Positions 11,035-59,200 of a stretch of DNA of 64,000 nucleotides are shown in pieces; the stretch's first letter is position 1; each line of letters starts with the position of its first letter. Under the pieces are notes generated by a model. The model searched no databases, was not told where the DNA came from, and saw only the letters and a program-made list of their open reading frames with translations. A program made the translations under genes and the position numbers. Origin of the DNA: Neelides folsomi (Eukaryota; Arthropoda; Collembola; Neelipleona; Neelidae); assembly GCA_034687125.1 (NCBI GenBank), contig JAQGBZ010000034.1, positions 248,001 through 312,000 of the forward strand, in the 5' to 3' direction.

Positions 11035-12620
11035 CTAAATGTCGTCGTCTCCACAAACTTCGAGAAAGACGTCGAAAGACAAACGGCTGCAATGCCCATC
11101 AGAATTGAAAACATACTTGTGAAATGTCCCGTCCATACAAATTGCTAAAACAATTCAAATTATTAATTAACATTTAAGTTAATTTGAGTTATTTTAAATT
11201 AAAAAATACTATTAGTAACATTTTTTAAATTACCAACAACCGAACTGTGTGAGGAAAATGCACAAACACAAGCGCATTCCGGAGGGACTGTAAAATTCGC
11301 TAATGCCCATTGCGACTCCACGTAATTCCCGAGAAATCCGATTTTGGATAACCTAAATAATTATTATTTATATAACAATATGTTCCATATTATATAATTA
11401 TAATTAAATACATATAATTAATATTAATTTCATAATGCAAGTAATACAATTATCCTATTGAAATGTTTACTAAGTTTGTATTGGTGAAACTAAAGTTTTA
11501 AATACAACTTACGTGGAGCGTCGATTGAGATGATGGTCCTTTAGTGCAAAAATATGTATCGTTCCTTTATCACTGGAACAGCAAATGAAGTCTGAATCGT
11601 GACTGAAATTGATGCAGTAAACTGTTGCTGAGTCGGAACCGCGTCTGAGTTCATGAACAAGAGTTTTCTTATTTGCGTCCCAAACCCGAATGAGCGTTCC
11701 TTTGTCAGAGGCCGTAGCAATTAAATTCCCTTGCTGGTTGATAGAAATACAAGCAAGTTCTCCTTGGTGAGCATCGATGGTCGCAGGGCTGCTCGAAACG
11801 GTTGCTTCCGTTGTGGCAAGATTCTAATAAAAATAATATTCATTGGTAAATAAGTTTAAATTTAATAATAAATTTTTAAATTAAGTTTAAATTTGAATTT
11901 AATAATGAATTTGAATAAATTTCTTAATTTTATTGGTCGTTATTATGAATATTACCATAAGCTGAAGCGACCCCAATTTTGATCCAGGAAACACGAGGAG
12001 ATTGCAAAGGCCAGGAGATAATTCGCACAACCCAAGAGGATTAGGTCGAGTTTCAATGGTAAATAACTTCTGAGGATTGTTGGGAAAGGAAAAGATGTGA
12101 ATGCGATTTTTGAGAACGGCGACTAGTCGGTCACGGCGACATCGAACTGAAATCACAGTTTGATTGAAAGTGAATTCGAGAACGGATCGCTTCTTCAAGT
12201 CATCATAGACCAGAACAGAGTTGTCGGCATATTTCGGTCGACTTCCTCCGCTCACAATGGCAAATAAATTGCATCGATAAACCATTTCACAGAAATTGAC
12301 TCCACCAAGAAGCTGCTCATCTGGAATTTATTAAAATATTTCATTCGTAATTGTTAATTAATTAATCGGTTTATTTTGAACATATTTAAACTAATTCATT
12401 TTTATACATACCGTAATGAACTTTTTCCACCAGTGGTTCGACATGATAAATTCGCACTCCGTTTTCCATACAGCACATGAAGCAGCCTTAAAGGATCCAA
12501 AAGTTAGAAAATTCAGAAAATATATAAGTTTAAATACTTTTAATTCCAAATGAAGGGAAACTTACTCTTGTCTTGGTTGAACCGAATGTTGGTTATTTGT
12601 TTCTCGTAGGAAGACGCCAT
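11035..12620 (-). CDS. WDR45: WDR45/WIPI4-like PROPPIN, autophagy WD-repeat protein, 6 exons, 344 aa
   Basis: Exons in transcript order: 12566-12620, 12412-12486, 11956-12320, 11513-11823, 11234-11352, 11035-11144; all junctions keep frame and total 1035 bases. WIPI proteins are seven-bladed propellers that bind PI3P and PI5P on forming autophagosomes and, for WIPI4, partner ATG2. The start matches the family ([20 protein letters not shown] with VRIYHVEPL after it). The lipid-binding LRRG motif is at about 224-227, followed by [19 protein letters not shown]. Later blades read [15 protein letters not shown] and DGTFHKYVF, and the acidic tail GDDDI resembles the acidic end of WIPI4 rather than WIPI3. 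The gene is tail-to-tail with the phosphatase gene and head-to-head with the CDK inhibitor gene. Confidence 0.93.
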
Positions 12621-14362: not shown

Positions 14363-14443
14363 AGTGCGCTGGACGACGAGAGGAATTTCAACCCCGCGGC
14401 CCCCGCCGACGCTTCGACCCTGGGCCAAAAACGGAGTGGCACC

Positions 14444-27100: not shown

Positions 27101-30100
27101 CAAATAATTTCATACCATTTTAAATAAAATTGAATAAATGGTCTCTGGAAGATTCTTCTAATTCTCTTTTAATTCTTCCATATACATCCATGGAATAAAT
27201 TTGAATTCTGACACTGGCAAAATATTTAAGTACATAACTATAAGTCTTCATTTTCTCTAAATGTCATCATGGAAATCAATTCGTTGAAGGTGATAGGCAA
27301 ATGTTTTTCATTTTCTCAGTTGAAGAGATTTGGATAAATGTAGGGATTGAAGGCGTTGGTTGATGAATGTCGATTGTTGTTAATTTGTCTAAAGACCATT
27401 TGCCACTCGCTACGAGGACATTCATGAGATCCTCTCAGGGATTCCTAATTGAGGGAAAACAATGAAAACAGGGAAGGAAAAACATTCGCTTTTACCTTTT
27501 TTTCAATGGGGCATGGATTTTTTTAGTTTAGTTTAGGACCTATGGACAATTGGGTTCTCTGGAAATGTTTGTTCTGGAGAGTGAGCAGAGGTTGGTTTGG
27601 TTAAATGGAATTTACCTTAACAACGATAGTTCCTCTTCTTTCAACGACAACAATCAATCTTTAACTTTGTTTGCCTTCCAATGTCTTGCGTTCGTAGTCA
27701 TGGCCTCGTGGAAGATGCTAAAAATATAACCATTGGGTTGATTATTATTATGGAGATATACATATAGGTAACAGATATTATATTGTATGTATTTAATCTC
27801 TCGAGACTCGTAGGGTTCATCTAAGTACACGACCAAATTTGAAAGGATCAAGTGAATAATTCATGGGATTTTATTACAAAGTGCAATTTGAGACATTTCA
27901 TGTTTTATTCATTTGCATGAAATTGTTAAAGTTGATCGAAGTCTTTGTAGCTAAATAACGTATATGTACTTAATGTTAGTTACTTATAAAAACATTACTC
28001 AGAGTCATATGAGTTATATGGCCATATCAATATATCAATTTAGTTGAGGCATTTAAAATAATGTTGACAAAACGATATAATGACAAAACTGTGATTTCTG
28101 TTTACTTCTTTGATACAAATTAGTGAATAAATGAATGAGAGAATTTTCATTTTCTTAATGAACTTGGTAAATGATCAATAATTCAATTGTAATTATTCTC
28201 CCTCTTACACATTCTTGGATCCGCGACAGGAAGGAGCCACAACATACATCTAATACCAAATACATGAAAACAAGACCGTTGGAAGACAATGGACCATGTT
28301 CTTGTACACTCATTATGGATCATGCTAACATTACAAACCCATTAGGGTTGAACAATTTATACAAATACTCATACATTGTAAATATATGTATATTATATTG
28401 TACATGTACTATTAGTATAGAATAGATATAAATGACACGTTGATATTACAAAAATTAAAATAAGTATATTGTATAGGTATTAGGTATACTATATAGTATT
28501 TTGTGTACTGTCTACATATTATTAAATATGTAGTTTGTATATAAAAATAACTAATAATTATAATAAATATACTATTTAGCTAAATGTACAAAACTGATAT
28601 CTATAAATAAGAACAATTGTATTTAAAATTTTGCTCAGTGTTTGTTGGCTATTAAGAAGCTTGGATTTTAATTATAACTACTGATATACCTATGTATAAT
28701 ACTAAATACTATATATGTATCCTACATATTATATTGGTATATATATAATATTGCTTACATTTAGTTTCATTCATTGAGGCGGGAGTTGAAGTTCATTGAG
28801 TAATTAAAAGTTAAACGACCGTCAGGGAGTTGTTTTAGTAGTCATAAGAAATAGGCACATTTTGATAAGTTGCTGCATAAATTAAGCAACTCTCGCTTTC
28901 ATCAAAGAAAATGTTGGTCGTTTCGGTCAAGTGAAAGACATTCATTAACTCCGTCGTTATTTGAGATGTTGGGAATGAATTATTATTAAATTACTTTATT
29001 TAAGGTAGGCAATTGATTGGGATGTTTACCAAGCCAGGCAAGTGAAACTATTGTTCTCATTCACCAAACACATGCCATTAAAAGACAAATGGAGGGAAAA
29101 TGACATCATTTTCAAAACGAGAAAACTATAATTATATTAAATATATAACATGGATCATTATGTAATTATATTAAACTATGGATGGGCGTGTTGCATTCTC
29201 ATAGAATTCATTAAAGTGATTAGGGATCTGTAAATGATTCCTTTTAAGGTTCAAATAGGAGTCAAATCAGTGCATTGATTTTCTCATCTTTTTTGAAAAT
29301 TGGACATTAATAATGTTAATTGGATTTCAGTGGTTCTCGATTGTTATGTATAATGGTTATAATACATGCAGTAATAATAGAGTATGTAATAATGTACAAA
29401 GTGTCTGTAGTTATATGGAAGGAGAATATGTTGAAGTGATTAATAAAAATCGTTCTAAAATTTCATTTTGTTTTGAGGATTGATGGTGGCGGGAATGGGA
29501 GATAGGGAGGTTGGTAATTGGAAATTGGTGGAGAGGGTAAGACTGGTAGTGAGGAAGGCTATTAGGAGAAAAGAAGGTGTAATAAATACAAAGAGACTCA
29601 AGAAACTCCCCATATTAATTGAACGTCTCTCGAGTGAACGGTAAACAGACTACTGGTTATTGTGGGGAAATATTGACAAAATTTATTAGCTTCTCTCCCA
29701 CCAGACAAACTTAGAGGAGTCTTCAGTCTTCCCTTTAAAAGCGACATATTTCAAAACCCTCATCTCACTCCTTAGACCTAATAATACTTAATAATACATA
29801 TAATACATACCTGTATAATACCTGTATGTATACATTTATTGTATACAGCTTGGAGATTTATATTCACCAGACTCATCATGAACCAGGTAAGATGTTTCTC
29901 CCAGACAGAATATACTTAACTACCAAAGTAATAGTAATATGGTAATATCGACCCATGTGTATTTATCAGTATATATTATACTTATATATATATATGTATA
30001 TATTATATATTGTAATACATGTCTTTCCTGTGGTAATGTTTTATATTATTTAAGGGATATCTAATTTAATATAGGATTCATTCATTTGTTGGGGTTTGGG

Positions 30101-30862
30101 GGTCTCTTTAACTCCTTTGGTCTTTCCCTGTCAAAAAGAAGAGAGAAAATCATAATGAATTTCCTCCTCCTTTCCCTCCCAATTCATTTGAGTCCCTCCG
30201 GACTATGTAAACGTAATATGGATGCAAATGAGATTTTTCCCTCAAGGGACTCAACGATGGTCACTTGGACACGAACCCTCGGATTCATTTAAACACAGAT
30301 TGTTGGTAAGTAAAAGTGTACATAAAAGCAAAATGCAAACAGTGATCCTCAAATCTTCATAGGAAATTTCTACTAAAATATTTCTGTACTATCTTGAATT
30401 AATATAACTTTAGCACATATTGGATTGGTTGGTTTTACAATATTCTCATTTGTTTAACAATATTTAATTATGATTAAGGACAAAGGTTAAAATCATTAAG
30501 CCTTTGATCTTGATATCTTGAATCAACATATCTTTGTATAATTTAATAATTTCTACAATGGATTTAACGCTTCTAATCTTCCTTGAGCTTCTATTCCTCT
30601 ATCAATGGAATTATAACTTTGGAAGATAAAGATTACATTTAATACCTTTAGTTTAACTGGCTAATCATAAAGGAACAAAAGAATATTTATATTTTCTCAC
30701 GAATTCATTAAAAATGTCATGAGTCAACTGAAAGTGAATAACAAAGTCGAAGGAATTACGCGGCTTCGGATCTTTTCCATTCAAAATGTTCATGTTGGGA
30801 TGTTGGTGAAGAAAGGCTTTGTTCCTTAAGACCTGTTGGTGGAAAGGAAGGAGCTTTAAAAA
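21121..30862. other. gene-free region, alternating TA-rich DNA and balanced islands
   Basis: I find no gene here. Islands of more even composition lie near 21160-21540, 22870-23100, 23220-23480, 24860-25460 and 26870-27010. Between them are TA-rich stretches, for example around 24760-24850, and a short ATG/ACG trinucleotide run near 21987-22009. Reading frames in the islands are short, overlap on both strands and lack domain motifs. The pattern would fit scattered regulatory elements but is not proof. Confidence 0.45.
24755..24850. repeat. TA-rich low-complexity tract
   Basis: Runs of TATATA and TACATA units with interruptions; similar tracts recur across the window. Confidence 0.7.
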
Positions 30863-31496
30863 CAGTGCTCTCTTAGACATTAGGCATTGCCCAATTAGGC
30901 GTGCTTAATTAGGCATTGGGCAAAAGTCGAATGCCTAATTAGGCAGTGCCTAATGCCTAATTCTCAAATGACCAATTTCATGAGAAATGTTTAATATGAG
31001 ACTAGATTTGGAAACGTATCAAGGCGAATGAATTCAAATAATAAACTTTCAGAGTATTTAAAATTATAAGTTCACATTGTTTAAAGTTCTATGGTATTTT
31101 AAATTTAATTTTTATTTAATTTTTATAATTGCCATTTGATTAGCTTAAATTGTATCTTGATCCTGAATGAGTGAATACGCCGTTTAGACTTATTAACACA
31201 TGTACTACATTTCACGGCGAGGTGTTGATGCACAAAAATAATTATTATAGGTAATTTATAATTTTAAATTATTCATGCATATTTAGAATAAAAATACAAT
31301 TAAAGTTAATCAAATGGCAAGCTTAAAAATATTATTATTTCATATTTTAATTTCTAAAATATATATGTAATATTATTCAACTTTAAATAAAATAATCTCA
31401 TATTACCTCTTAGGCAAAAATTAGGTATTATGCATTAGGCATTATTAGGCAATGCCTAAGGAATTTCTGAATTAGGCTGCCTAATGCAGAGCTCTG
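30863..31496. mobile_element. non-autonomous hAT-type element with TTAGGC-rich subterminal repeats
   Basis: The left tip reads CAGTGCTCTC and the right tip, reverse complemented, CAGAGCTCTG. Both are followed by ATTAGGCA repeats in direct and inverted copies. The flanks are TTTAAAAA (30855-30862) and TTTAAAAG (31497-31504), an 8-base target duplication with one difference, as expected for hAT elements. The 634-base element has no transposase and an AT-rich middle, so it needs help from elsewhere to move. Confidence 0.82.
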
Positions 31497-31504
31497 TTTA
31501 AAAG

Positions 31505-34500
31505 TCAATCTTTAACAACCACGCTACTTAAAAACTAAAAATCAACATTTTTTATAACTTTATTCATCTTTTCTCTGTTATGAGTTGAGCAAAAGTAGAA
31601 CAATTTTCTATAAGAACTACACATTGCTTATTTGCATAGTGACTAAAAATAAGCGTGTAATAAGGTATGATTAAATCATACCTACCTGTATACAATATAC
31701 CTGTATAAGGATCCTTATCTACCTGTACAATATATAAGGATACATAATAAAATCGAATATTCTTGTATACGATGAAAATATAAGTTATAAATATAAGTTA
31801 TATAAGATATAATATATGTTATCTATATGATAAATGCACCATGTGTATAATCCATTATGACTGCCAAATACAAACGTAATAATTGATTTATGTAGTAAAG
31901 TAAAGTTTTTAAAAACTCTTAGCGAGTCAGTGGCCAAATGGAATTGAAAAGAGTTGAATGAATGACATGCATATTTGTATGTATTAGGCATGGACAGAGA
32001 AGATGTGTAAAGAAGTGTGGAGGAGAAACAAAAGATTTTGGAGTTTCATTTCTTCCTTGGGATTGCCGGACACCTGATGAGCCCCAGGTGAGCTTCATCA
32101 TCTTCCTCTCATTGGGATTCGGAGGACTCGGAGGAACCCTGGTCTGGGCATGGAATGAATTGAGGGTCCTTGGCCAATTGATTACTTCCCTCCCTATGGG
32201 ATTAAGGGAGTGAGAAGTTGGAACAACTTGCGAGGCCGCGAGGACCACTCATGCAGATTCGGCCCATTGTTCCCCCCTTTTTGCGAGGGAGAGTCTCCTC
32301 AATATCAAGGATGAGAGTGCAACGGCCCGTTCGGTTCACTTACCCTCTCCATACGCAGCTCCCCCACAGATCAATTTACAGGTGGATTAGCATGCCCCAG
32401 CTCATAAGAACGCCTTAATTACAAATCCTAGGCACATGGGATGACTTCAAGATCAATTTCTTGCCGATGTTGGGGAAGAGGTTCTAATGGGTTCCTTTTG
32501 GAATTCCCAATGGTTGAACCAACGCAGTGGATATATTATACACATGCATTTGGCGAAATTTGCCAGTGGGGATGGAATAGATTATTATTAAATTTATTAT
32601 TCAAACTCCCCTCGACACGTTTGTCCACACAGGAGAGTGTTGAGCCATTTATTAATAAATAACGTGTTGTTGGGGGAAAGTGAGGTTTGACTACTGAGCG
32701 ATGGTTAATTTGGTTTTCGGGCGTTCCGCTTGCGGCCCAAAACGATAATGACCAAGGAATCTGGATAATGAATCTTGGGCTTCTGGAGATTTGAACTTGG
32801 TTGGCTCCTGGTTTGGAATTTTGAACTTGATTCATCGCCCAACGTCACCTCTCAATGATGGTGATGGGGAAGAGATATGGAGAAGTGGGGAAGTGATAAA
32901 TCACATTTATGGCTCCGCCATTGGAAACACGTCGTAAAAGTGTCGATTGAGGTCCGAGGTCCGAGTCTAAGAACGTCCTTCCGATTTACATGATCAAAAC
33001 TCGTCTCGTCCACATTCTCAAATAATGGAGAGACATTTATCATATGATATAATGCAAGTGCGTGAGTGTGTGTGAGTAATGGACCATCGAATTACCTTCC
33101 CAGTATAAATACTTGTTATTCTCAACAGAATGTTTAAAAAACAAAAGTGAATCTCTTGGAGTACAGTTAAATCCGTTTGAAACTACTTTATGTAACATCC
33201 CACATAGAGTATACATAATATAAGTAGAAATTACTTTTACTTACCCCAACTCCATCGTATTAAATTTCCAAAAGGTGTGAAAACTCTATTTGGACCATCT
33301 TTAGAAATGCATTTAAAGGTGTAATTATATGGAGATCATGTATACAAAATACACATCCAGAGTCAAAATACATCTAGAGCCCACAACACACGAAGAGCAA
33401 ATATTTGTACTGAAGAGACGTAGTTGTATAAAGAGAGTGTGGGCGTATGATGAGAGGTCATAAATTCCCTTTTGGATTCTTGTATAGGGATCAATATAAA
33501 AAAAGAGACGGGCGTATGAAATGAGAGCTGTCGCCTTCTCGCTGTCGGACCAACTCATCCAATCTACATTTAATTCCAAGGCGCCCTCACCCATTAAATT
33601 TGGCCGTTGGGGTGGGAAGAGGGTGAGAGGAAAGAAAAAAGTGGGATCGAGAGGTGAAGACTTTTCTTAATGATTCCTCTCAGCATCTTAATATTCAATC
33701 CATTAAATACACATATTAACTATATATCAAAATAATATATATTTAATATTTATGTATGTATATTATACATAATTAGAATATTATAATGTATAATTCTTAT
33801 ATATTACAAAGCTATGTTTAGTTATTAAGTGGAAGGATTGGTTAAATATTTTATAATAAAATAATTCATTCATTGGGATTTATCTCCTCCAATTCCAATA
33901 AATATGGATCGATGAATTGATATGAGATTGGCAAAGGGAAGGAGATATATAATTCCTATAATTCCTACAGGGAGTGAAAAGTGTCGCGTTTGAGTTTAAC
34001 GGCCGAAAGGAACCAGATCCGTTGGGCTAATGGATGTTTAATAGTCTGGAACGAGAGACTCGTTGGGTTGAACGTTGGTCCAAGGAACCAGCCGAGTCAA
34101 GATTCATGATCCGAGAGGGAAAAGGGCAGGTTTGGAAGGATCTCCCCTTCCCTTTTTTCTCCTCGGCTGACTCAGGTGGATCTGAAAAAGGAATCATTGT
34201 GGTCTTCTCCAAGGCCATGGACCACTCTGGCCAACCCCCGACCAACGGCTGCTGCCTGGGAAAATCACCATGTTAAGAACCCTTCGATTATGACTACTTT
34301 AATTCCCTATAAGAATTAAATGGGAATCGTTGGATCAACTTTGACCCCACTTGTTCTAATTCCTTGGCATTCCACTCACCTGTGCCACCTGTTCCGCACA
34401 TGCAGGTGAGACTTTCCTGGTCATCATTTCCATGGGAATAATGAGAAAGCGAGGCGCAGAATTTAAAATGGCATTCTCCTCCCCTAGACGTTAAATACGA

Positions 34501-37500
34501 TGATGTGGAAAAGAAATTCCAAAGGATCTTCCAACAATCTCCTGGACCACAATTTTTGAATTTGGAAGCTGTCAGGATGTGGAAAGACTCCACTTTGTAT
34601 GTGTCTTCTATCCAGTTTACGACCCTCTCACCTGTTCCTTCTCCTCATGGTTCTCGAATCCAAAGGATAATTGGCCCATCACTAAGCCCATGGGAGAAAA
34701 ACTTCCCATCCCTTCAAGTCTCCCGTCTAATTTATGTAACCGAGAGACGGACAACTTCTGACCTCCTCATTTGCATATTATTCTACGGCCAACTCGGAGG
34801 TCCAAAACCCTTCCAACCATCATTCAAATAAACATCCAAATCCATTTCCACGCACTCCACAGTTTAAACATCCAAGGGAAGGAAGGGTCTTATATAACTC
34901 TTATATAACACAATACTACACATATAACAAGGGACACCTTTTTTCTATTGTGATCTTAAAGTTTAGATTCCCTGTATTTATTCCTATCCCTGCTTGTACC
35001 ATATACTATATTATGGTATATATGGTATATTCCATTTGGGAGTTATTTGAACACTGAGATTTCCACCACCTGTTGCACATTTCCCCATTTTCACCCAATT
35101 TTGAGAGGAAAGAAAAGTCAGGAGCTGAACCTTTCAATCACGTTGTTCTAAACAACACCTGTCAATAGAAAACGTGTTCGTTTATGAACCGGAACGTGGC
35201 AAATACATATCCCATATAAATACAAAAATCCCATTGGTACAATGAATACCTAAACACTTACAACTACTATACAACTACTACATTATATCCGAACATGGTA
35301 TAGTAAATATTGTATAAGTATTTATTATGAATTATTTTCTAATACAAAATGAAAATTTTTCTGACTCTTTAAGGGAGAGATTTCAAACAAATGGGCGTTT
35401 AAATATGTAGAACCAACTGTTGCTTTCTTTTCAACACGGCTACCCAATAAGCTACAAAGTAGAAATAGCAAAGATATACCAAACTATTTAGGTCTTTCTT
35501 ACATATTTTACTATATATTTAATAGTAATGTAAAATATATAATAAATAGTAATTTAGCATATAAGTATATGGTATACAGTATATACCATATATAATATAT
35601 TTAATATGTCCATACGTTTTATATTTTACATAATCTCGAGGGTGATCTTGTGAGACATTGAGAAATCATAAATTCCGTCGTTTTGTCAAAGGATCATTTG
35701 GAGGACTGAAAGCGTTTTTATCTGGGATAAATCTCCCACATTGGATCCCCTTCAATTCCCTTCTGCATTGTGATGATCAAAGAATTCCGTGTTGGAACGA
35801 GTCGGTTTAAATACCGAAGGAATATTTGACCCCGAGCGAGCCGAGGAAGGCCAAGTTATTAACCTCCCTAATGGACGTGGAAGTGGTGGGTGACTGCGGG
35901 CGGATTGAAGGGGGCCCTTCCTTGTCATCGCTTCTTTCACTCCAACCCTTCCTACCCCGGGCCTAATGCCATGACTCCTTTCTTACATAAGCCCTTGTTC
36001 GAATGCTCAGGTGGATCAGATGAGAAATCCGAATGTGAATTGTCTACAGGATTATGTCATGTTAAAATTACTTGTGTTTCCCATAGTCTAATGAATCCCC
36101 CATTGTCCAATGACGTTTTGTTCAAATCTCAAATATTCGCGACATCCGTCTCAAAAGCGACACGGGGGTTGTGAGCACAATGCAATTGGGTTTCTCCGAG
36201 GTTCCTCATTGTCACAATCCCACTTTAATCTCAGGCTTTGCGTTGTTTGTGCAAAGGTGTGCAATTCCTGGAGGTCGCAGAGTTCCAACTGGAACGAAAT
36301 GCAAGAAGATGCATTTACGAGGATCTTGATGCAACCAAGGAAGTGTGACCGATTCTCTCAATCCACTTCACGCCAATTCATTAATTTATTTAATTCGACT
36401 CTCTTCATGTGGGCCTTGCATTTAATTGAGCGGAAGGGTGAAATCCACAATGCAATTTTTCCGTATGTTTGGGGAATAACAAAAGGCATTCTCGGTTTCG
36501 TTACGTCCAACATTCAACGACTGCATATAAATACATTCTCAATGTAAACTTGCATTTAAATCTCCATGGATTATATATGTAAGTATTATAATAATAAAAG
36601 CAAATAATCTCCGACTCGCCACTTGTTCCGGTCGATAAAATGAAATTGTTGGACTCCTTCGGCTCCTTTCTTCTTCTTCGACTACAATGGGGGTGTTATA
36701 TTACCGCATTTCCCTTCCCTCTCAATTATCACAATTCCAAGCCCTGTCAATTGTTCTTCTTTACTACGCCCAGTATCAGAATCTCTATCGACTCCTTTCA
36801 TTTTACATGATTTTAACCTCACTAAATGGGGAATACAACCTTTACAAGCAAGTTTACATATGGTACATACACGTTTAAAGACAAGAGAATAGTAAGACTT
36901 GATTTTAAACTATATTGGATCATAAAAGTAATCGTGTCATTACAACTTTATGACGACACTGTAAAAACTGAGTGAGCTTTAAATTTAATTGTAATTTAAC
37001 GCAAGCTATCTGATATCCGATCAAACAATTAATTAATTATGTGTAGGTAAAGGAGTTGTAAAATCCCTTTTGATATTCTTTCCCATTAATCATATGTACA
37101 TATATCATCGATATTATTACTTATTACTTAAAATTACTAATGAATCACTTTTTGAATTACCTCCCATTTTGATAAAAGACCTTGACTTTTTTGTTCACAA
37201 TTATTTCCAATTATAATAAAAGTTATATTATATTTTATATATGTAATATTGTATATGTTTAGTATTTAGTATGCATATAATTTTTGATCGTACAAGTTGT
37301 ATTTATAAGTACAGATATGATAGTGATAATGATAAGTGAGGTGTTTACATGTTTTATAAAGCTAAAACATGAATTAATTTTAAATAAAAATGAAAAAGAG
37401 TGTATGAATTTAACAGAAATTCATTCAATATTTTCTCAATAAAAATGTAATAAATAAAGAAGTTTATTTTTTTGCACCCAATCATTACCATTCATTTGCA

Positions 37501-40500
37501 TATCAATAATGTAGTCAAATAGGTAGATCCACTTCATACCCATTCAATGTTATTAAGAACGTGCTTAAAAGCTCTGAGAGTTATGACTCAATTTGTCCAG
37601 AGGCAATTGGCAAGGTTACATATAAATGACCATTATTGTGACGTTTGGGAGAAATTTGGCAGTAAAAGCAATCACCCCTCGCAAGTAGCAATTATTAGTC
37701 CCAAATGTGATGTGATTAAACCTGTGATTTGCATTATTTTAATACGCTCATCATATTTTCCCTCATATCGAAATGATCAAGGTTGGTGGGTTTTTTCGTC
37801 CGAAGGACTCGTGGGGAATGATGTTATGGGAAAGGGTTGGTTGGAGCCCTGTGATCTTCCAAGGCGGGACTTTCAGAGCTGAGCCGACATTTCCCAACGT
37901 TGGGAAGAATGCGATCCTCCGGTCACGAAGGTGAGGTGAAGGTGACCAACCGACCTCAGAGTCGTTAATAATGAGGATCTGGGAAGTCTGATCCATCCCC
38001 AAATCCACTCTTCCTCATTCTCAAAAGATCCCAGGAACTTTAAACGCCCAGCCTCTTGAAGGGATCAATCGACGTTCTCAGGTGGAGTCGGCATGCGGCC
38101 ACTCTCATTCTAATCATAATCTCCCATGGTCCATTCCCACTATAATCATCTCTTGTTAACCCTTCCACCATAACACCATAACACCATAATATACAGATAA
38201 CATATTCATACATTCCAATATATGGTATACATAATATGTATAGTTATATTTATATTATGTATTTCTACTCAGCCGCATTCTCGGTGCATATTAAACGTGG
38301 AAAGATAATCTGGACCTATTACGGAGATGGGTCACAATGATCGTATTTGTATTCCATAGTTCACCTGTAATAATACTACATGAGAAGCCCTCCAGGGTTC
38401 TCCCTTTTTTCTCTGGCCTTTAAATGAAGGAATGATGATGTTCATCTCGAATTCTTTTCCTCAATCCCCAATGCCCAGTCAGCATAAAAAGATGGACAAT
38501 CGAGTCCTTCATTTCCTATGGATCATCATCATATGTAGTTATAATATGAAACAGGGTTTTGGGCCAGGGAGCCCAGGCGGCTTTATCAGAAGAGCTATTA
38601 GATTCCATTGCATCAGCATTTGTTCTCATCCGGACTCACGTTCTTCGGTCGCCGCCGCTTCTTCATATGATGTCTCTTTGAGGGATGAGAAATTGAAGTC
38701 ATTATTACGAGAAAACTCATCCAGACTTCCACCAGCAGCCAACCAAGAAACCCAATCTCGGCTAATCCACCCCATGAAGGACCAACCTAACAATAAATGT
38801 ACACAAAACTATCTGAACAGTATACATATATCCAATAAATACAGTATGTATTCAATTTACATATGGTATATATGTACAGACATGTATATTTATGTATGTG
38901 TGATGTATGTGTGATGTATCTGTATATATAGTATGTATGTATGATGTTATATATTTAATGTATGGAATGAGATGTATAGTGGACGGGTTTTATAGGGACC
39001 GATATTTGAATATTCCACCTGTCTGGACCGAGCACCATCCATCCGAGTTTCGGAATTTGTATCGGCTCCTTTGTTCTCAGATCGGGGGAATTAAGGTCGT
39101 GAGGAGAAGAAGGAGGTGAAAGCAAATAGCCGCCCGGCTCTTTTAATAACGAGGATTTCACGAGAAAATGAGGGTCGGAAAGAGTGAAATGAGCTCGTGT
39201 CTCACGACTTTATTACCTAGACAATACATGGAGGATTGGAAGGAGTCTCCATTGTGCAGTTACCTTTTATTCTCACTGCCTTTCTTCAACCTGCTAAATC
39301 CAGCCCAATCTCCTCATTCCGGGATCATCTCGGAAGGGTTTAATTCCCACTGGCTCTAACGAGCTGCTGATTTAAATCATTTATATTATTCATCCTAAAC
39401 CACTGTGGAGGAGGAATGTAAAATATTACGTTCTTTATCGTATAAAGTTCTTTATTACGTTCCTTGCTTTCTCTCTCTCGAGATATCTTGGGGGTGTTTG
39501 AATGGAAGAGTCGGAAATCCTTCTTAACGTTTGAGCAGAGTGCTGATGAGTGGCTGAATAATTCAAATCCCAAATTTACAATTTCAGCCATTGGAGATAA
39601 TGGGGAAGGTGTGTGTTTGTCATTAGGGGTGGATTACAAGAAGGAATCATTCCAAATGTGCTGTGTCTTAAGAGAATAAAAAATGAGTTCTTTTGGATCT
39701 TTCATTCCGAATGCTCTCACTTCTAATCACCGTCTTCCCAAACGTCCCTGCATGAAACTGGAAGGGATGTGAGAGGGAAATCCTCTTGAGGGAACGACTA
39801 CCTTCACAGATCCAACAACAATATTACAAATATATAGGTATGTTGGTATTATATGAATTATATCAAAGTTAAATAATAGGAATACCTACATTAGCTACTA
39901 CAGATATATTGAACATCGTAAACATTATTAGTGCGAGTCCCAGGGTGTATATTAATACAATATTTATATAGGTGCAGGTATAGGTTACATTACAGGGACT
40001 AGTGGGTCCTTTGTATGTAGGTTTAATATGAGCCCTCATCTTGTGTCCTCAGTTTTTCTTGTGCAAGTGAGCGGGCTACTGCCTTACGCAATCCCTTCCC
40101 CACCTTTTTTGAAGTTCTTGAGAACGTCTGAGCCGCTCCCTTTTCCTCGTCCCAAATCATCCCTTTCTTTTAAAGACACATTAAACGAGGAACACATTAA
40201 GTGTATTCTCTCACATGGAGCGATACAATGGGGATCCGTAAAGTAGGCAGGAGAGCAACGGTCAAAATATTTTTTTCTCTCGTCTTCACTCTCTCCTTCT
40301 TCAAGGGCCTTTGGAGAAGGGACGAGGAAATTAGGTAATGATAATCTCTCTTTATGAACCCCCACAGGAAATGTATAGGAAGCCCCAATATTTCATCGAC
40401 CCTGATGAGGAAGGAAAATCCCTCCATGGATCAACGGAAGGAGTACTTTAAGTACAGACATTACGGTCCTCTCCATTACAGGACTCTACCTGGCCTTCTC

Positions 40501-40829
40501 CCCATATTTCCTTCAGCTTCTCGCCATGGGCTCTCTCGGGTTGACCAAAAGGGTTTCCCCAACGGCGGGTTTTCTCAACCTCGATGGAGCTTCTGTCTCC
40601 GTCCTTTGTTTTAACCCTTAATTTCTTCATAATTCATCTCTGGGCCCTTCCTATCTCCTTCCTATATCTTTCTTCCTATTTCCCTCGACAGGGTCGCAGG
40701 GCCGGAGAGTAAATCTTCTCCCCCCGCATTTCCCACCAATCAACAAATAAGTACGAGATTCTTTCTTAATTCCATCCTTGGCCAAACTCCCAGTTTCACA
40801 CAGACTCTCCGGCCTGTTTACATTTGACC
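31505..40829. other. gene-free region, alternating TA-rich DNA and balanced islands
   Basis: No supportable gene. Islands of more balanced composition lie near 32030-32420, 32690-33040, 34040-34280, 34370-34860, 35690-36550, 37740-38160, 38390-38780, 39140-39360 and 40020-40820. TA-rich tracts sit between them (for example 33720-33800, 35520-35620, 38820-38960). A 14-base palindrome (ATAAGGATCCTTAT) lies near 31706. The longest frame, 36110-36547 (+), has no recognisable family and no clear splice context. Confidence 0.45.
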
Positions 40830-40831
40830 TA

Positions 40832-41229
40832 TAGGGTTGTCTGTTATATTCGTAGACTTTTGCTAAATGGCTATAATATGACTAAATTATGTTATAAGAA
40901 TTTCATAACTATTCTTAATTTTGCTTTGCAATTAAGCAATTTTAAAATGAACTATAATTTTGATTTAATTGAACAAAGTGTTGTCATAAAGTTTTTAGCT
41001 TTGGAGGGTTTAAGGGGAAAGGCAATTCACTCTCGCTTGCTTAACGTTTATAGGAAAGAAGCGTTAAAATATAAAACGGTTGCAAAATGGGCACAAAAGT
41101 ATCGAACTGGACATCTGAGTATTATTGATGGCCATCGTGAAGGAAGACCAAAATCAATAATTGAATAAATTCTCATTAAAATAAAAATCAATTTTTCATA
41201 AAAGTCTACGAATATAACAGACAACTCTA
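40832..41229 (+). mobile_element. mariner-like element, internally deleted, keeps the DNA-binding half
   Basis: Ends of about 28 bases, sharing GTTGTCTGTTATATTCGTAG, match in inverted orientation with one difference and are flanked by TA (40830-40831 and 41230-41231). The 398-base element carries a 73-codon frame covering the mariner N-terminal double helix-turn-helix. The catalytic region is missing. The near-identical ends suggest it is fairly young. Confidence 0.88.
40947..41168 (+). CDS. truncated mariner transposase, paired helix-turn-helix region only, 73 aa
   Basis: From ATG 40947 the frame reads EQSVVIKFLALEG, then IHSRLLNVY, VAKWAQKYRTGH and REGRPKSIIE. These match the first helix-turn-helix, the second helix-turn-helix and the GRP linker of mariner transposases. 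The stop comes right after the linker, where the catalytic domain would begin; an intact transposase is about 345 residues. If made, it could bind element ends but not cut. The frame is also open upstream to the left terminus. Confidence 0.75.
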   Translation: MNYNFDLIEQSVVIKFLALEGLRGKAIHSRLLNVYRKEALKYKTVAKWAQKYRTGHLSIIDGHREGRPKSIIE

Positions 41230-45737: not shown

Positions 45738-45743
45738 TTTATT
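45738..45743 (-). terminator. AATAAA overlapping the relaxin stop codon
   Basis: On the minus strand the stop codon and a canonical signal overlap as TGAATAAA; the last base of the stop is the first of the signal. If used, the 3' UTR would be only a few tens of bases. Other signals further on may be used instead. Confidence 0.4.
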
Positions 45744-48099
45744 CAAGTTTTGAGGGATCGACGTGACCGACCGAATCGTCGATGTGTGGGGCAATATTCA
45801 GCATATTCTTCCCAAGTGCAACCTGCTGGACTACAACACTCGTCAGTTATTGACTTGCTCTCTCGTTTCCCTCTGAAAACACAGGTCCAAATTAGGAATT
45901 CCATTAGTGATATTTTGATCATCTAAGGAAATTCTAAACTTCATTATTAACAACACAAGCCTTGACTCAAATCCTTCAAGACTTGTAAATATTCTCACTT
46001 CAACCATTTCTTAATTCTTGTTCAGGGGAATGATTTTTGACAAGTAATTTTGTTAATTGGACGGAAAGGAGTTCGTGAGTTTGGGTGATTAAATGAAAAT
46101 CCATTTTTACCTGTCATATCCACTCCATGGCTTGATCAAATGATTGGCCTCTCGCTTGTCGATGAAGATTTCCTCAAGGGCCTCGTCCGAAGGCTCCTTT
46201 GGAACCTCGTGGGATCTTTTGTCAAACCGATAAATATCTTTTTCACATGCCCAATCCATATGGGTGAGGAGCTGATCTCGGCACCGAACGTGTTTCTCCA
46301 AGTGCCAAGCCGATTTCCATTCATCTTCGTTCCTATTATTCCATGAGATTAGCATTCCCAGAAATCATCTCTTTTTAATCTCCACCCTTGAGGACCAAAA
46401 AGGGCCCTTGGTTCACTGAAGGGAGATTCTCCCACAAACCCTTCTGCCACTCCTTTTACCTTCCTTCAACAAAATCCACAATACCAAACATCCTAGGAAA
46501 TGTGTAAATGAAAAGGTCAATGTATAAAGACTTGTTCATCTCCGGAACAAATTGACTTCTCCCTTAAGTCCCAATGAGACGTTTTTGAGTTAAAGCGTGA
46601 GAAAACACAGGTCGTAAATTACATGGACATTTTAATCACCAATTGGATTATCCTATAGAACATCACCTGGTACTGATAACCTAATAGGATATACTTAATA
46701 ACTACCATATGTATATAATAACAGTATATGTAAATGTACCTGTACCGTATATGTAATACCTACCTAATAGTAAAAGATATATCAATTAGAAGGTGTAGTG
46801 TACAGATATATTATTATGTGTATGCCTGGAATGTAAATACACCAAAGTAATGGGGAAACACACGAGATGAACATTAAGGATGCAGAAGCTGAATCAATGC
46901 ATTTTTTGATCAGGTTGAATAAATGAGAAACATGTTGTTAAAGGGAACTTGGTAATCAATTACGTGTCCACATGGGAGAGAAATCCCAATGAATGAATGA
47001 ATTCCAATTCTTCCCCATAAAAATTTCACTGTCAAAAGTTGGCCAGCCCAGAACAATAAAAGCCGATGAAGATCTCTCGGTTACCCCAGTGAATAAAAAT
47101 CCAGACACGAAGAGTCGGAATGTCTGGAATTCATTGAACAAATCTTTCCCATTCTCTTCATCTCCTCGGTTTGATGGGACTTTGATGCTCCACAACAAAT
47201 TGGCCACCTTCACAAACCTCGCCCATTTCAAAGAGAGAAAAGTGTTGAAAGAATATGTGTTCCGTGGTTTGAATGCCAAATTCCCCTTCTTTATTACATT
47301 AACTATGCAAATTGTTCTCAAAGTTCATCAATATTATAATTTTATAATGTGAGTAAACAAAGAAGCTCTTTAAAAATCATCAACCTTTGCATGGATTCTA
47401 TGTGTAAACTATCGATCATCTTCCAGCCTTTTTTTAATTCCTTTCAGAACCAACACTTTAACTTCTTTCTCCAACACGTTGAAATGGATAAATGGATATT
47501 TGCATAGTGATTATATTTTTTACAAACCTGCGTTTTACGAGGTGCGTAAGAGTGCGAAACATAATAATGAATGATATTGGATTCTAAAGGTTAATTGAAA
47601 GCTTTTAAATTTTTAAAACAAGGCCACTTGCTGTCTCCTATTTCGTTCCACTTACAAGCCAATGCAATGCATGTACATGTATGGGACATGTACACATGTA
47701 TCTGTAAGTTGTATGTAAGTACAAGGTATTAAATTTTAACAACTTTGTAATTTCACGATGGAGAAAGGAAATAAAAAGTGTTTTATGGCATCACATTATC
47801 GTCTAACGGATGACCTGGAGAAATATACATGAATATTGTAAATATAAATAAATTGAAGGAAGTGAGGAATGGGATTGAATCTAATTAAGGAGTCGTCATT
47901 AAGAAGGTCCAGGGGAGTAAACTTTCTCTGAGGGCAGAATTTGAAATGAAGCGTCGTCTAGACGACTGCGAGTTCACCTTAATTGAAAGATCTTCTCGAG
48001 CTGTGCCTCTCGGTCGGTGAATGCCGGACAGGGGAGGAGAGCAAAGGTCGCAAGGACGAGACTCACGCAAAGCAGAGGAGGAGGAAAACTTCTGGACAT
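45743..48099 (-). CDS. Ilp7: relaxin-like insulin-family prohormone (Drosophila Ilp7 type), 3 exons, 157 aa
   Basis: Exons in transcript order: 47978-48099 (signal peptide), 46111-46332 (B chain and most of the C-peptide), 45743-45872 (A chain); both junctions are phase 2 and keep frame. It should be a secreted two-chain hormone; insect Ilp7 is a relaxin-like peptide. The signal peptide has a hydrophobic run (LLCVSLVLATFALLP). B chain: EWKSAWHLEKHVRC, then C-x11-C to WACEKDIYRF, a very conserved family block. Dibasic sites follow (DKRS, DKRE, GKRE). A chain: DECCSPAGCTWEEYAEYC, that is CC-x4-C-x8-C. From memory, Drosophila Ilp7 has nearly the same A-chain block with the same x4 spacing. The tail is PTHRRFGRSRRSLKT. 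A second in-frame ATG 17 codons upstream (48150), after a good acceptor at 48171-48172, is an alternative start. Confidence 0.92.
46333..47977 (-). other. relaxin-like gene intron 1
   Basis: A GT-AG intron of 1.6 kb joining the signal-peptide exon to the B-chain exon (phase 2, arginine codon split). Around 46956-47352 both strands have frames open for about 120 codons; neither resembles a known protein. Confidence 0.85.
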
Positions 48100-48170
48100 T
48101 CCTGGGATGCCGCTCCTCCTCAATCTGAACAAGATAAAATTCCGAGTCATCTTCAATCCAAGATGAGACA
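48100..48170 (-). other. probable 5' leader of the relaxin-like mRNA
   Basis: On the minus strand CCTTTTATTTACAG (a strong-looking acceptor) ends at 48171 and would start an exon that runs into the signal-peptide exon. An in-frame ATG lies at 48150. An upstream non-coding exon is therefore likely but not located. Confidence 0.4.
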
Positions 48171-51100
48171 CTGTAAATAAAAGGAGCCCAAACATTGTTC
48201 GCCTCCTTGTACCCGGTGGTCCAATTGAACCTCTTCCCAACAACATATGGAGATTCACATCCTTATGGGAGCCAACACTGGGCCACTCGACGGACATTCC
48301 AAGGGATCTCTCAGAGATTCTCTCTCAGAAATTCTCGAGATCCAGAGGAATGACACAAGCCTTGTTGGTGGGAATAATTACCAAATCCCACCAAGTGCCC
48401 CACTTCTCCCATCACCCCCGGCAAGTGTGAATAAATTTATTGTGTTGGGCCCTATGGGGAAAATACCGGGGATTCCCTATGTAGATACGAATTCCCTAAA
48501 CGTCTAATCTAAACGGCTCGTGGCTGTGGGCAACAAAAACGCCTTTAACCCTTCCCGTAATTTAATCACAGCTTTCACATCCGCAACCCACATTTTTCAC
48601 TTTATATATTTCTTTCCAATTGACCTTCAATTCATATTTATTCTTCATGATCACAACCTATATTTAACTTCCCTTATATTAACTTAACTGTATTAACTTA
48701 ACCAAAAAATTTCCTTATATAAATAAAGTCAAGATCATTCCACCCCAATGTCAATCACGTAATAATATGTACGGTTTTTTACATCTCTTTTGATCTTACT
48801 ACCAACAAGTGGATCCGCTATAGTCAATACTTGAGACCTTTTAACAATATATAAGAAATTTAGTATTTTTTCCTCCTTCACACCCTGGCTTAAGTATTTG
48901 GTGTTTAGAAAAAGGGTGGATTTTGGAACTTGGGAGATCACTGGGGGCAAGAGGAAATAAAGGTAAGATTTCCAATCTAATCTCCCGTTACTACATGTAT
49001 TCTTAGTAATAGTATTACAAGTACCATAATGCGAGTGAGGGTAATTAGGAAGTTTGAAGGACCCAAGGTTTAAATGAAAAATGAAGGAGTTACGTTTACC
49101 CACCTGTCAAATTCAATATTCCAATTTCCTCCAGACTCAACTGATGAGGAATTTTTTGAACAGCGCTGAGGGAAAGTCAAGTGATCATAATTTGTATTTA
49201 TCTGGAGGGTTGTTGAGAACCATGGGATTAAATCGGCCGGAGTCGAGGACGAGAGACAAATGGGGTTGAGAGGAGGACAGGTGAAAATTAAAAGGCTTTC
49301 CTCAATGACGAGGGCAACATGCGCCAGGACGAGTTGGGACGGTTTTACATATGTTGTGTCGCCAGGGTCGGATGAAGGTGACGTTCCAATTCCGGATTGT
49401 CCGGGAGTTGTGAGGGCGGGGTGTTTTGATGCGTCGTCGTCCTCCTCCGCTGCCCCCAACATTTATTATCCTTTGTTTGAGGACGTAGGAGGAGGTTTGA
49501 GCTACTTTCAAAACAAAGAATCACTTTAATAACAATGTAATAGCCCAAGATTCAATTCCAGGTGTACACACCATTCATTCCATTCTTCCCATTCCCATTG
49601 GACCACATTGACGACGCTTCTTTCTGCCCTGACAACTTAATGGAATCTTCTCACTATCGAAACAAGTAGCTAAATGGTAAATAAAAACGTCTAATTAAAA
49701 TTATAACCAATTTTAACGTCTCGTACAATTTATCATTAAACTATTTTAAGCGGATCCGTCACTTTGTTGACCAATTTATTCTAGGATTTTTATACACGTC
49801 ATATTGGACAAAAAAGATTTACTCGACAGTATGCTAATATGACAAACTCAATTCGTGTTCATGATTAAATCCATATATGTCATATACGTCATACAATACA
49901 TATGTCATATGTCGTATACCTAAGTACTGCATATGTATGTAACAATGTAACAAAGGACTCTAAAAATAAAATGTATATTAAGTTCATGTATTTATTATTA
50001 TTAATTAAATGGAAATATGATAAGATCTTATATATTATGGTAAATACGTATACTGATTGTATTCAATATATATATATTTAATGTATTACATCATATAAGA
50101 ACGGAAATTTTGACTTTTCTCTCATCTTGCGTGAAAAAGTTGGGAGTGAAGTTGAAAGTTTGTTTGGAAGAGGGCGAGTAGTTGAAAAACGTTCCTTTTC
50201 GCTTCTACACATTTCATTCACATTCACATTCAAGTTTAAACATGAAAAAGGGTTTGTCTAATGAAAATTCATTTATTTATTTATTAATGAATGTAAATTA
50301 AATATAATGATGAAATTAATATTATTATTAATTTTTATTACTTATAATAATGTTATTTAACATTATTATAAGTAGTTGATAAATAAATAAATGCTTATCG
50401 ATAAGAATGGGGTTCAAATGATGAGTTCTAAGAGGAGTTTGCTCACAATCAAAGGTCGAGTAAAGATAAACTATAAATTTATTTAATATTTATATGTACA
50501 TACAATATACATGTATATGTAATATATATATGTATGTATATTGAGTATCCATATCTTTATATTATAGTCTTAATTGATATACTGATATATAAACATCTTA
50601 TAAAAATAGAAAAAATGGAATTGGGTATGTTAATGAGTTTTTAAAATGTTCTCTGCGACTCCCCAATGATGATGGATGGTGATTGAATAGTGAGGGGGAT
50701 AAAGAGCTTCCATCATTCTTTATATTCATTATTGGCATTTATTAGTAAAAAGGCCGGGCCGAACTAATTTTGGATAAAAATGTCTTTTATGTGACCCTAG
50801 ATTGGACGTGGACGTGTGTGGAATTGATTTTGCTTGCTAAACCCCCGGGTCCTTCCCATCCCGAACCGAGGATTATTGGAAGCCGAAGTGTTGAATCTCT
50901 TAACAGCTCAATGATCTCCAAGGAGAGAAAAGGATTCCTAATGATGGTCCCGGAGCACATTTAGCCGTCAGGGATTTGTAAGGTCCTTGTAATGTAAGAG
51001 GGATGAAGCCGCACGTTCCAACCCTCACCTTTGACTCCAAAGATTCATTAATATCTCATTGAAAGTTGTTCACTCGGCGTTGCGCTCATTGAAGACCACA

Positions 51101-54297: not shown

Positions 54298-56287
54298 TTA
54301 TACAACAACTGTACTAGTGGGAGGAGAAATGAAATATTGAGTTTTCATATAATTCCCAGATTGGGGCCAACTAGTCTTTGACTCGTAATAGTCGATAATT
54401 AATTGAGGGAAATCATCCCGAATGTTGGATGACAAAACGATATCTCTATAAGCTGATTTACTCCACTGTACAAGATACATCACTTCACCCATCCCGTTTA
54501 CAATAGCTCCATAAATTTTGTAAGGTCGAAGAGAACGTTCAGAGCCGCTCCTTCCGTTCTGAAAAACAAAAAAGAACTCAAAAATTAAATAAAAGATTCC
54601 AAATTGGGTTAGGTTAAATTATTAAAAAATAAAGATAATAATAATATATATGTAACATTTATATATCCAACATGTTTAAAATATATTAATTAAAGATGAG
54701 AAGGAATGAAAATGAACTCTTACTAACGTTAGCCGGCTCTTTGTTAATCTTGGAAGATTTCGGGCCCGGCTTTATTTTTATCTGAATTTTCGGCTTCGTC
54801 TCGCCCTTTTTCTTCACCTCTGGCTCGCCCTTGTACTTCCCGCCAGTCTTTTTTGCTGACTCGGTGACTTTAATTGGGCTGAGAGGGAGAGTTTTACTCT
54901 TAGGACCAGGTCGCTTAGTAATCGACTTCTCAGGAGTGATTTCCTTTTCAACAACATCCCAATTATCCTCATCGTCATCTTCTGACGTTTGGTCTTTAGT
55001 GGATTTCTTGGAGTTCTTTGGAGTCCGTTTGCCCTTTTTCTCAGATTCCCGTTTAGTCTTCGAATCCTTCGAAGTCTTTCGTCCAGCATTTGAACCTGGT
55101 TTTCTCTTTTTCTTCATTTCTTGCTGTTTCCGTCTCCACTTGACCTCGAACTCATCGATCAGGTCATCGCATTGCAGTCCCTCATTACGCTTTTGCCACG
55201 TATTGTCGCAGCTAGAAGTAATCGAAATTTTATTAAAATAAATATAATTAAGAATATAATCTTAATATATAATGGAAAAGTTTAATTAATTTTAATTAAA
55301 AGCTTACTGGTCCCATCCAAGCCATTTTACTTCGTAATAAACGTTGGGCTTATTCTTCCCATTCTTTCCCTTGACGTATTCAGTCCGTTTGTCCAGAATG
55401 GCTTCGACCACCCATTGCTTCTCTCCATTCTCGTTGACTTGATAAGCGTCGGGTTTCACTCCAGTGTAATCGTCCAGGTCAGGGAATGGCTGAAGAATGA
55501 TAGGCGATTTTGGCCTCGGTTCCTCCTCCTCCTCACTCTGTTCGGGAGTTGGAGGTCTGGTCGACTTTCGTTTCTTCGTCACAGACTTCTTCTTCGGCTC
55601 ATCGTCCTCCTCCCTCTCGACCTTCACTTCGGAGTAGTCCGCTGAGACTGACTTACGATCAGACTTTTTCTTATTCTTAAAGCGTTCTTGAGTCGACTCC
55701 TTGTCGGAAGATTCAAGATGCTTCTTATTCGAGGCAATGATCCTGGCCCGAGTCTTATTGGATCGCTCCTCCTCCTCTTCCGGGGTTTCTTCACGTCTCG
55801 CCCGTTTATCCTTCCCATTCATCAAAGGCGTCTTTTGCTTCTTTTTGGGTTGGACGGAGTCGGCCGACTCTTCGCGTCTCTTCTTTTTCCCTCTTTTCAC
55901 CGACTCGTCATCGGAAGACTCATCGCGGCGACTCTTTCTCTCTGATGCCTTCCACCTGGGTGGAGATTCCTCAGAAGATGACTCGCGCCTTTTCTTACTT
56001 TCAACCTTCGACTTGACCTTTGACCTTTCCTCGACCGACTCTTCGGACGAGTCCCGCCCCTTTCGGCTAGCCCTCACATTGGCCTTTCGTCGTTGTTTCT
56101 GGTAAGCCTCCTCAGATGAACTGCGTCCCTTTTTCGTTGCCGACTTGGGGCCCGGCTTTCTGGCTCGCCTATCATACGACTCCTCAGACGATTCCCGCCT
56201 TTTCTTTCTTTCCACCAGGGCCGGGGCCTTCCTGTCGGATCCCGACTCCGACTCCTCCGAAGCTTCTCGCTTTGACCGCTTGTCCAT
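54298..56287 (-). CDS. HP1-like chromodomain/chromoshadow protein with long charged N-terminal extension, 3 exons, 574 aa
   Basis: Exons in transcript order: 55308-56287, 54728-55211, 54298-54558; junctions keep frame. HP1-family proteins bind methylated histone H3 in heterochromatin and dimerise through the chromoshadow domain. Residues 1-290 are highly charged with about seven units of a basic cluster followed by SSEE or similar (KRRESSEES, KGRDSSEES, KKRRESSSEES), likely CK2 targets. The chromodomain starts at WVVEAILDKR (292) and runs across the first intron to DDLIDEFEVKW. Cage positions are aromatic (W292, W322, W325), and a lysine- and glycine-rich insertion of several residues sits between the first strands. 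The hinge is lysine-rich with repeated PGPKS. The chromoshadow domain is in exon 3: YKIYGAIVNGMGEVMYLVQW and, later, FPQLIIDYYESKTSW. Ordinary HP1 lacks such an N-terminal extension. The exact subfamily is unknown. Confidence 0.88.
55840..56275 (-). repeat. coding repeats, basic cluster plus SSEE
   Basis: About seven copies of a degenerate unit ([KR][KRG]R[ED]SSEES) recur in the first 140 residues of the HP1-like protein. The spacing is about 15-25 residues. In DNA the repeats show as GACTC-TC-GA-GA blocks, which also open chance frames on the other strand. Confidence 0.75.
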
Positions 56288-59200
56288 TTCGAGAATGATT
56301 GTCGGTGTCGAGTGTCTCTACTTGGTCAATGCGCAGTACCTAGGGATATAAATAGCCTAAGTATATGCAACAGGTTTCTCTATATGCACGTGGTATCTCA
56401 CCTTCAATTCCCCGACTCCGAAGCCGGTCAAGTGGAGAATGACGCACCTGGGTCGGGAAGTGACTGTGGAGGAACTTCAATTACCTCTGGAGTGAAGATG
56501 TGACTTGCCGTTGCAGAACCGGAGGGTTCTGAGAATAAATGACGCCGAATTATGAAGCCGTCGTGTCGTGGCCTGAAGAGAAAGTTAAGCCACAAATTGG
56601 AGGGATTTTATTTCGCGTTCTTCATCCTCCCAATCACTCACTTTTCTCAAGTCTCCCCGTCTCATACAAAAATGTCTTGTATTTATTTATGACCACTGCA
56701 CTTGATAAAACCAAAATGCTGGACCAAATATTCCAAAGACGGCTCCTTTGGTCACTTAAAAAACAAACGAAGAATTAGGAACCTTAAAAGACCTCCAAGG
56801 GTTTTTCGAGCCCTTCTAACATTGAACAAGGTTTTATTTATTCCTAGGTTTATTTATTCCTAGCTATGTGTCACACATTTTATTTTCAGAAGGGCCCCTT
56901 ATTAGTAGTTTTTCAGTACAATAAATATTATAACTGTATTCTAATCTTACAAGATGTAATGGAAAATAATAATTTAACTAATTTGATATTTTATGATTTT
57001 CTTTCTCATTGGCTTACATTTAGTAAATACATTGAATCAGTCATAGTGAGTCAAAACAATGGAGCTAATACTTATGTAATTTGTAATTCCATGTTACTTT
57101 TATGTATCTGATAGGAATGTACATTAGTTTGGATTTATTTGAATTGAATTTGGTTCTACTGGTCAACTAGGTTCCCTGGTGAGACTTTCTCAATGTGACT
57201 CTTGTGAATATTGACAATGACATTTCCATCACTACAATCCTCATGTACTGAAAGGGAGTTGATCAAAGGTGAAGGATCGAAGATTGGAAAAAGTCTAAAT
57301 CTCGGCCATTGAAGGGTGATGAGATGTGAAGTGTCGTGAAAGAAGGGCTCACTTAAGGGCGCTCCGAACCAATGGACCCGAAGGAGAACCGGCTTTGGCC
57401 CGGTCGAGAATCCCCAATCCTTTGTGTCCCGACTCCTCTTCATATTATTTAACTTCCTCTTCATATTTAGCTGAGGGAGGAGGTCTGCATAGTAATTGGG
57501 GCTGTAAGAGTAATTGTGTGAAAAGGGCAGGGCGGGGAAGACCGCGTGAAGTTGTCAAATAAATAGATGAGGGCCAGATGGGTTAGTGGTCACTCACTGA
57601 GAAGGTGGGACCGGTGAATTAAAATTCCAAATTGGGCTTTTGTCCTCACAACTTGACTTTCCTAACCGAACCGAACCGAACCACCCAGGGAGGACTCCTC
57701 GGCCTTTCCACACGCCCCTTCCCCATTGAGGGCTCCTCTCAGTCCAACTCTCGTTCCAACTCTCTTTCATCAAATCACATAATAAATGAGAGGGGAAGTT
57801 TGAGTCCACAACTCCCGGGTCACTCTTTTATCCCCATTGTCGGAACATTGGCCCTCTTCTTTAAAGTCCTTGTAAATGAAGCTTTTGTTCGATCCTGCCC
57901 CATTTACCAAATTAGGACTCGGGATATGTAAAGAACTCCCTTTTGTCTCTACCAGAGCTTTTCATTAAAGGGACTCTTTGACCTCTTCAATGATCCCAAA
58001 TTGCCTCTCAAACTCTTTCATCCCCTCCAATGTGCTGAGTGGGGAGAGCATTGGGAATTGATTTATTGGCTTGGTCCAAGACCCTCGTGGAGCTCATTCT
58101 ATACCTTAATTATTCCTAATTGCTCTCGACCCAACCGTTGATTCTTATTATTACGACCGTTTTCATCCATTTGGCTTTCATCTCCCATCCATTACCCTTT
58201 CCCCCAATCTCCCATTGTTCCAAAGACAGATTTCCCCTATTTTAACTCCACTAGTTTAATGCCGGCTATTAAGATTAAATTTATGATCTAACCATTTAAG
58301 ATTTAGTTATAACTCATACTGATAATCGACATCAAAAAATTTCCAATTTGATTCACTTCAGGGTCTCAACTTTGTTGCAAGTAATTAATAGTATTAAAAT
58401 ATTGAGAAAACAATTTCATACATCAACATTTGCCATTACCACTGGCTATATGATGAATTTGCATTTAATAAAATTAGTAAAGGATTCATCAATCGAATCT
58501 TAAATCAGCGTAATTTGACATAACTCCCCATTATGGTATTGACATCTCTCAACATTAGCTGACGACAGAAATGAGTAAATTATAGACTTTGCTATAAAAT
58601 AGACAGAAGATTGAGACTTGGGTGGAATGAATTGATAATGGCGAAAGTAAAATGTTGAGTTTAATGCAATTATTGTTTTGTTTACTTGATTCAAATAAGG
58701 ACTTATTCCATGCTTCCTTTGTTTACTTAATCTTTAAACGAAGCTTGAAGGAGAAGCTCAAATTTCACAATTGACTAATTTCCATTGGATAAATTCTCCA
58801 GTTGCTCTTTTCCCTATTCTCAAATTTCACAATAATACATTAAATACAATGTTAAGAATGAGTTTAACCTTTAGGTTCAGTTTCGCTAACCAATAACAAA
58901 ATCGTTATCAATGTTTATCAAACCCATAAACTTATAAATATGGCACGATAACCTTAACAATGTAGACCCAATACATATATCATTATCATACATATCGTTA
59001 TCATTTTACTTTTATTAAAAATGATTTACTAAATTGGTTGTAAGAAGAGTAAAGGAGATTTAATTACTAAAAGGAAAGTTAATGAATATATATCGGAAAG
59101 TTAATATATATCTAAAGGTACATTTCTTAAACCATTAAAGTTGAATCAATGTATTAATACATATGAATGAAAAACATTTTATTTCACGGTGGAGGAACTC

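Follow-up and report, generated by a model that had tools for sequence, protein, structure and literature searches.

The question raised by this locus, which lies on the minus strand of a 64,000-nt window (the whole stretch of DNA that was analysed, on the 340-kb contig C34), is whether three small exons form a functional gene for an arthropod relaxin, a hormone of the Dilp7/Ilp7 type. Judged by its sequence, it is almost certainly such a gene. The three-exon model of the original prediction was reproduced in its coordinates, strand, exon lengths and splice sites: the minus-strand exons 48099-47978, 46332-46111 and 45872-45743 (122, 222 and 130 nt) join in frame across GT-AG introns to 474 nt encoding 157 residues, and the exon phases are compatible, as had been claimed, with introns 1 and 2 both in phase 2 in the best model. 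Coding exon 1 (47978..48099) provides the ATG, the leader LLCVSLVLATFALLP, whose hydrophobicity suits a signal peptide, and the start of the propeptide, and ends at ATTAAG/GTGAAC; its length of 122 nt makes intron 1 (46333..47977) a phase-2 intron. Within the searched limits, two in-frame GT-AG pairings are available for this intron, and the sites are better in the pairing of ATTAAG/GTGAAC with AATAATAG/G, in which the acceptor (CATGGAATAATAG/G) shows a poor pyrimidine tract. Coding exon 2 (46111..46332) encodes the B chain CRDQLLTHMDWAC, which includes WACEKDIYR, as well as the larger part of the C peptide together with its KR sites, and ends in phase 2 at TGACAG/GTAAAA. Intron 2 (45873..46110) lies inside the C peptide, is of phase 2 by its best splice sites and has CTAAT and TGTGTTTTCAG near the acceptor, while coding exon 3 (45743..45872) holds a GKR site, the A chain ECCSPAGCTWEEYAEYC, a basic tail and the TGA stop. 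The start codon is uncertain, as the exon 1 reading frame continues without a stop upstream of the selected ATG (window 48100-48324, minus strand) and contains further in-frame ATGs.

Hydrophobic leader, B chain and A chain are thus distributed over exons 1, 2 and 3, respectively, and both chain signatures are present as described beforehand, namely C-x11-C (46245..46283, minus strand) with WACEKDIYR in the B chain and CC-x4-C-x8-C (45791..45838, minus strand) with CTWEEYAEYC in the A chain. Nowhere else in the window, read in all six frames, does the A-chain motif occur; in 100 Markov-1 simulations of the window, matches averaged 0.02 (x4) or 0.03 (x3 or x4), with a maximum of 1. The C-x11-C spacing by itself is uninformative, with 29 occurrences observed in the window versus 28.0 expected from Markov-1 simulations. 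The leader consists of a single strong hydrophobic stretch (mean Kyte-Doolittle value 2.47 over residues 8-22 or 9-23), with C11 and C24 located within it or at its end. It is followed by six cysteines (residues 58, 70, 127, 128, 133 and 142), and dibasic sites are found at residues 79, 100, 117, 146 and 152 of the precursor. The hydrophobic stretch ends at residue 23 and the first cysteine of the B chain is residue 58; the 34 residues in between would, with putative cleavage sites, fit the spacer polypeptide that separates the signal peptide from the B chain and by which Dilp7-type precursors are recognized in passages of PMC11863921. Leader and C peptide, together with B and A chains that share a six-cysteine insulin core, compose the layout of a Dilp7-type precursor, at a Pfam score below the cut-off.

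The introns bear on the assignment in two ways. In passages of PMC11863921, Dilp7-type genes are told apart from relaxin/Dilp8-type genes by a phase-2 intron that separates leader and B chain, and excerpts of PMC8286064 on ambulacrarian orthologs describe the same intron in Dilp7-type genes; by the predicted splice sites, the window gene possesses it. According to the same parts of both papers, Dilp7-type genes, that of the fly included, have a conserved phase-1 intron within the C peptide, which has been reported for hemichordate, starfish, annelid, mollusc and fly; being present in relaxin/Dilp8-type genes as well, this intron is not distinguishing. In the window gene, the best pair for the C-peptide intron is of phase 2. 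Ranked by a simple home-made consensus score, the nine in-frame pairings are topped by TGACAG/GTAAAA with TGTGTTTTCAG/A (total 13.7), followed by the same donor with another acceptor (9.3) and the phase-0 pair 46206/45922 (8.7), with the best phase-1 pair at 5.0.

Among the alternatives, the one that survives best, though it is rather unlikely, retains an arthropod relaxin whose C-peptide intron is spliced as the weak phase-1 pair with donor 46124 and acceptor 45870. Such splicing would cut five C-peptide residues with both chains intact and is a variant of the main reading rather than exclusive of it. The pair is in frame, phase 1 is the state described as conserved among Dilp7-type genes (PMC11863921; PMC8286064; both in excerpts), and phase-1 pairings score best for the insulin gene on contig C142 of the same genome. 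On the other hand, its donor CATGGA/GTGGAT is poor (2 vs 9 for TGACAG/GTAAAA), its acceptor would bypass a good TTTTCAG two bases upstream, and it is outscored even by the phase-0 pair, which is itself below the best one. On balance, we favour the view that the phase-1 C-peptide intron has been lost or displaced in the Dilp7-type gene of this arthropod lineage, which would have a phase-2 intron in its place and unchanged hormone chains, while the insulin gene on C142 appears to retain phase 1.

Membership in the insulin family was borne out in part by a protein search of the 157-residue product. Pfam named one family, Insulin/IGF/Relaxin (PF00049, residues 58-142, E 0.0051), though with 18.2 bits below the cut-off of 23, but a PDB sequence search with the full precursor provided no convincing relative: four matches were obtained to E 10, the best of which (E 0.94) is not insulin-like, while the best insulin-like match is a viral insulin-like peptide (E 1.4), which has the x4 spacing too. 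The proposed closeness to Drosophila Ilp7 emerged as a strong match, 40% identity over 124 residues, to a provisional fly core sequence, a comparison which serves as a lead and not as a test; the similarity to this sequence spans the exon 1/exon 2 junction. WACEKDIYR and CTWEEYAEYC match Ilp7 in this comparison, and the x4 A-chain loop is presumably a feature of fly Ilp7 as well. The A- and B-chain peptide strings did not occur in the literature text searched. Relatives were confirmed neither in genome_contigs (111 pattern matches) nor in viral_contigs (6), two collections that would not be expected to contain animal genes.

As a member of the insulin superfamily according to Pfam, with a six-cysteine core common to the insulin, aIGF, gonadulin and IAG families, the window gene could in principle encode one of these hormones (insulin, aIGF, gonadulin or crustacean IAG) instead of a Dilp7-type relaxin, which we consider very improbable. 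Scanned with PF00049, the genome (75.1 Mb in 840 contigs) yielded three other insulin-family places (C142, C258 and C330; L002, L003 and L004), all above the cut-off. They share the family with the window gene, but their A chains show CC-x3-C (CCLKPC, CCHNPC and CCHQGC) and they are without WACEKDIYR or CTWEEYAEYC, so that the x4 loop marks the window gene out within its own genome. A hormone of these other types is also argued against by the phase-2 intron that parts leader from B chain, by a precursor without long C-terminal extension and without extra cysteines past the leader, and by WACEKDIYR and CTWEEYAEYC, which match the provisional Ilp7 sequence.

When the genome was searched with the 157-residue product, four places were returned: the three exons themselves on C34 and, on C797, a weak match with E 0.025 and 43% over residues 18-52, which lie outside both cysteine cores; no second copy was therefore found. 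The window gene is absent from the list of the exon-by-exon PF00049 scan of the genome to E 10, with no match listed on C34, which fits the expectation that the A-chain exon is easy to miss. In cockroach, termite and stick insect, relaxin, gonadulin and aIGF are adjacent according to passages of PMC7357564. A second A-chain pattern was found neither in the window nor, on C34, in four flanking stretches of 10 kb each (L041, L042, L043 and L052), a pattern that a divergent gonadulin could escape; by this simple pattern scan, the window gene thus differs from those insects, in which aIGF and gonadulin lie beside relaxin.

Other features of the window include two transposase-like stretches, one at 40770-41168 (plus strand) with a match below cut-off to the Mos1 HTH family PF17906 and one at 5578-6192 (minus strand) without Pfam match, which by eye we take to be mariner-like. 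A cyclin-dependent kinase inhibitor domain (PF02234, E 4.3e-12) is encoded at 14363-14755 (plus strand), and Pfam matches slightly or somewhat below cut-off indicate an argonaute N-terminal domain at 2306-3211 (plus strand), a PROPPIN (WIPI-like) at 11899-12327 (minus strand) and a chromodomain at 55304-56317 (minus strand). The genome holds 17 cuticle-protein matches at E<=1e-12, consistent with an arthropod.

Every genome with an ilp7 ortholog is stated to have an LGR4 ortholog, and vice versa, in passages of Veenstra (2020; PMC7357564), and LGR4 is the presumed Dilp7 receptor. A scan of the genome for seven-transmembrane domains produced 148 matches at the level of exons. Thirty of them were taken as loci, and a leucine-rich-repeat GPCR motif occurred at three places over those loci, only that on contig C234 being in the receptor frame. 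This RXFP1/LGR4-like receptor gene (L039-L040; C234 about 25,580-37,897, minus strand) combines one LDLa with leucine-rich repeats and seven transmembrane helices, its exons having been read separately. For TM3-7, the best PDB match is relaxin receptor 1 (E 1.7e-44), followed by the thyrotropin receptor (1.1e-21), and for TM1-2 relaxin receptor 1 is again best (4.2e-14 vs 4e-8). The LDLa (37775-37897) lies upstream on the same strand and was found with the Pfam profile (150 of 278 candidates scored). A first, strict LDLa pattern had given nothing over 40 kb of C234, being too strict, and a loose pattern revealed no second LDLa on the minus strand of C234:10000-59999 (50 kb). Two leucine-rich-repeat stretches, found by pattern, are situated near C234:33,719 and 33,256, upstream on the same strand. 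An RXFP1-class seven-transmembrane domain, leucine-rich repeats and a single LDLa are the composition of an LGR4-type receptor.

TM2 and TM5 of the C234 receptor each lie within an unbroken open stretch, as reported for LGR4-type genes, which are without introns there, while introns in TM2 and TM5 are reported in passages of PMC11863921 for RXFP/LGR3-type genes of human and starfish, and in TM2 also of an annelid; none of these contrasting genes is from an arthropod. A phase-0 intron following TM7 is reported for LGR4 genes; after TM7 of the C234 receptor there is no GT donor directly, and a possible GC donor CAACAG/GCAATT would be of phase 0. With TM3-7 of this receptor as query, the genome search returned four places, which are the query gene twice and two weak matches, C127 and C52. 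The C127 place (L051, about 118,200-119,530, minus strand) was rejected as a second relaxin receptor, as its TM1-3 best match the LH, TSH and FSH receptors (E 3.6e-32) and are thus of glycoprotein-hormone type, and C52 was rejected with the alpha-1A adrenergic receptor as best match (E 1.4e-17). With both excluded, one LGR4-like receptor and no LGR3-like one were found by the TM3-7 search. The Ilp7-type relaxin identity put forward for the window gene is hence supported from several sides, by the cysteine spacing, the x4 loop, the phase-2 intron that divides leader from B chain, the finding of no second copy and the RXFP1/LGR4-like receptor. A decayed pseudogene is extremely unlikely, with three open exons, intact splice dinucleotides, a full set of six mature cysteines plus the dibasic sites, and, elsewhere in the genome, a receptor gene composed as expected.

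Most likely, the arthropod relaxin precursor would be secreted and cleaved to a two-chain hormone that signals through the LGR4-type receptor. The C peptide would be excised at the KR sites FDKR and GKR, three disulphides would link B chain and A chain, and the mature hormone may act, by analogy with Drosophila, on the leucine-rich-repeat GPCR encoded on C234 of the same genome.

Compared with known systems, the window gene shares with Drosophila Dilp7/arthropod relaxin the six-cysteine core, a phase-2 intron separating leader from B chain, the finding of no second copy and, presumably, the x4 A-chain loop. It differs from Dilp7-type genes, in which the C-peptide intron is reported to be of phase 1, by an apparently phase-2 intron. 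Decapod relaxin, which has seven cysteines according to passages of PMC7357564, belongs to the same family, but its seventh mature cysteine has no counterpart among the six that follow the leader here. With vertebrate relaxin and RXFP1, the system has in common an RXFP1-class leucine-rich-repeat GPCR and, as predicted for the product of the window gene, a two-chain hormone of the insulin fold.

The known picture of the family is left unchanged by this gene, which illustrates that an exon-by-exon Pfam scan can overlook the hormone. What is gained is a predicted new arthropod relaxin gene together with an LGR4-type receptor that matches it, both within one compact genome, which, as no LGR3-type receptor was found by the searches used, would make a tidy case of ligand-receptor co-occurrence.
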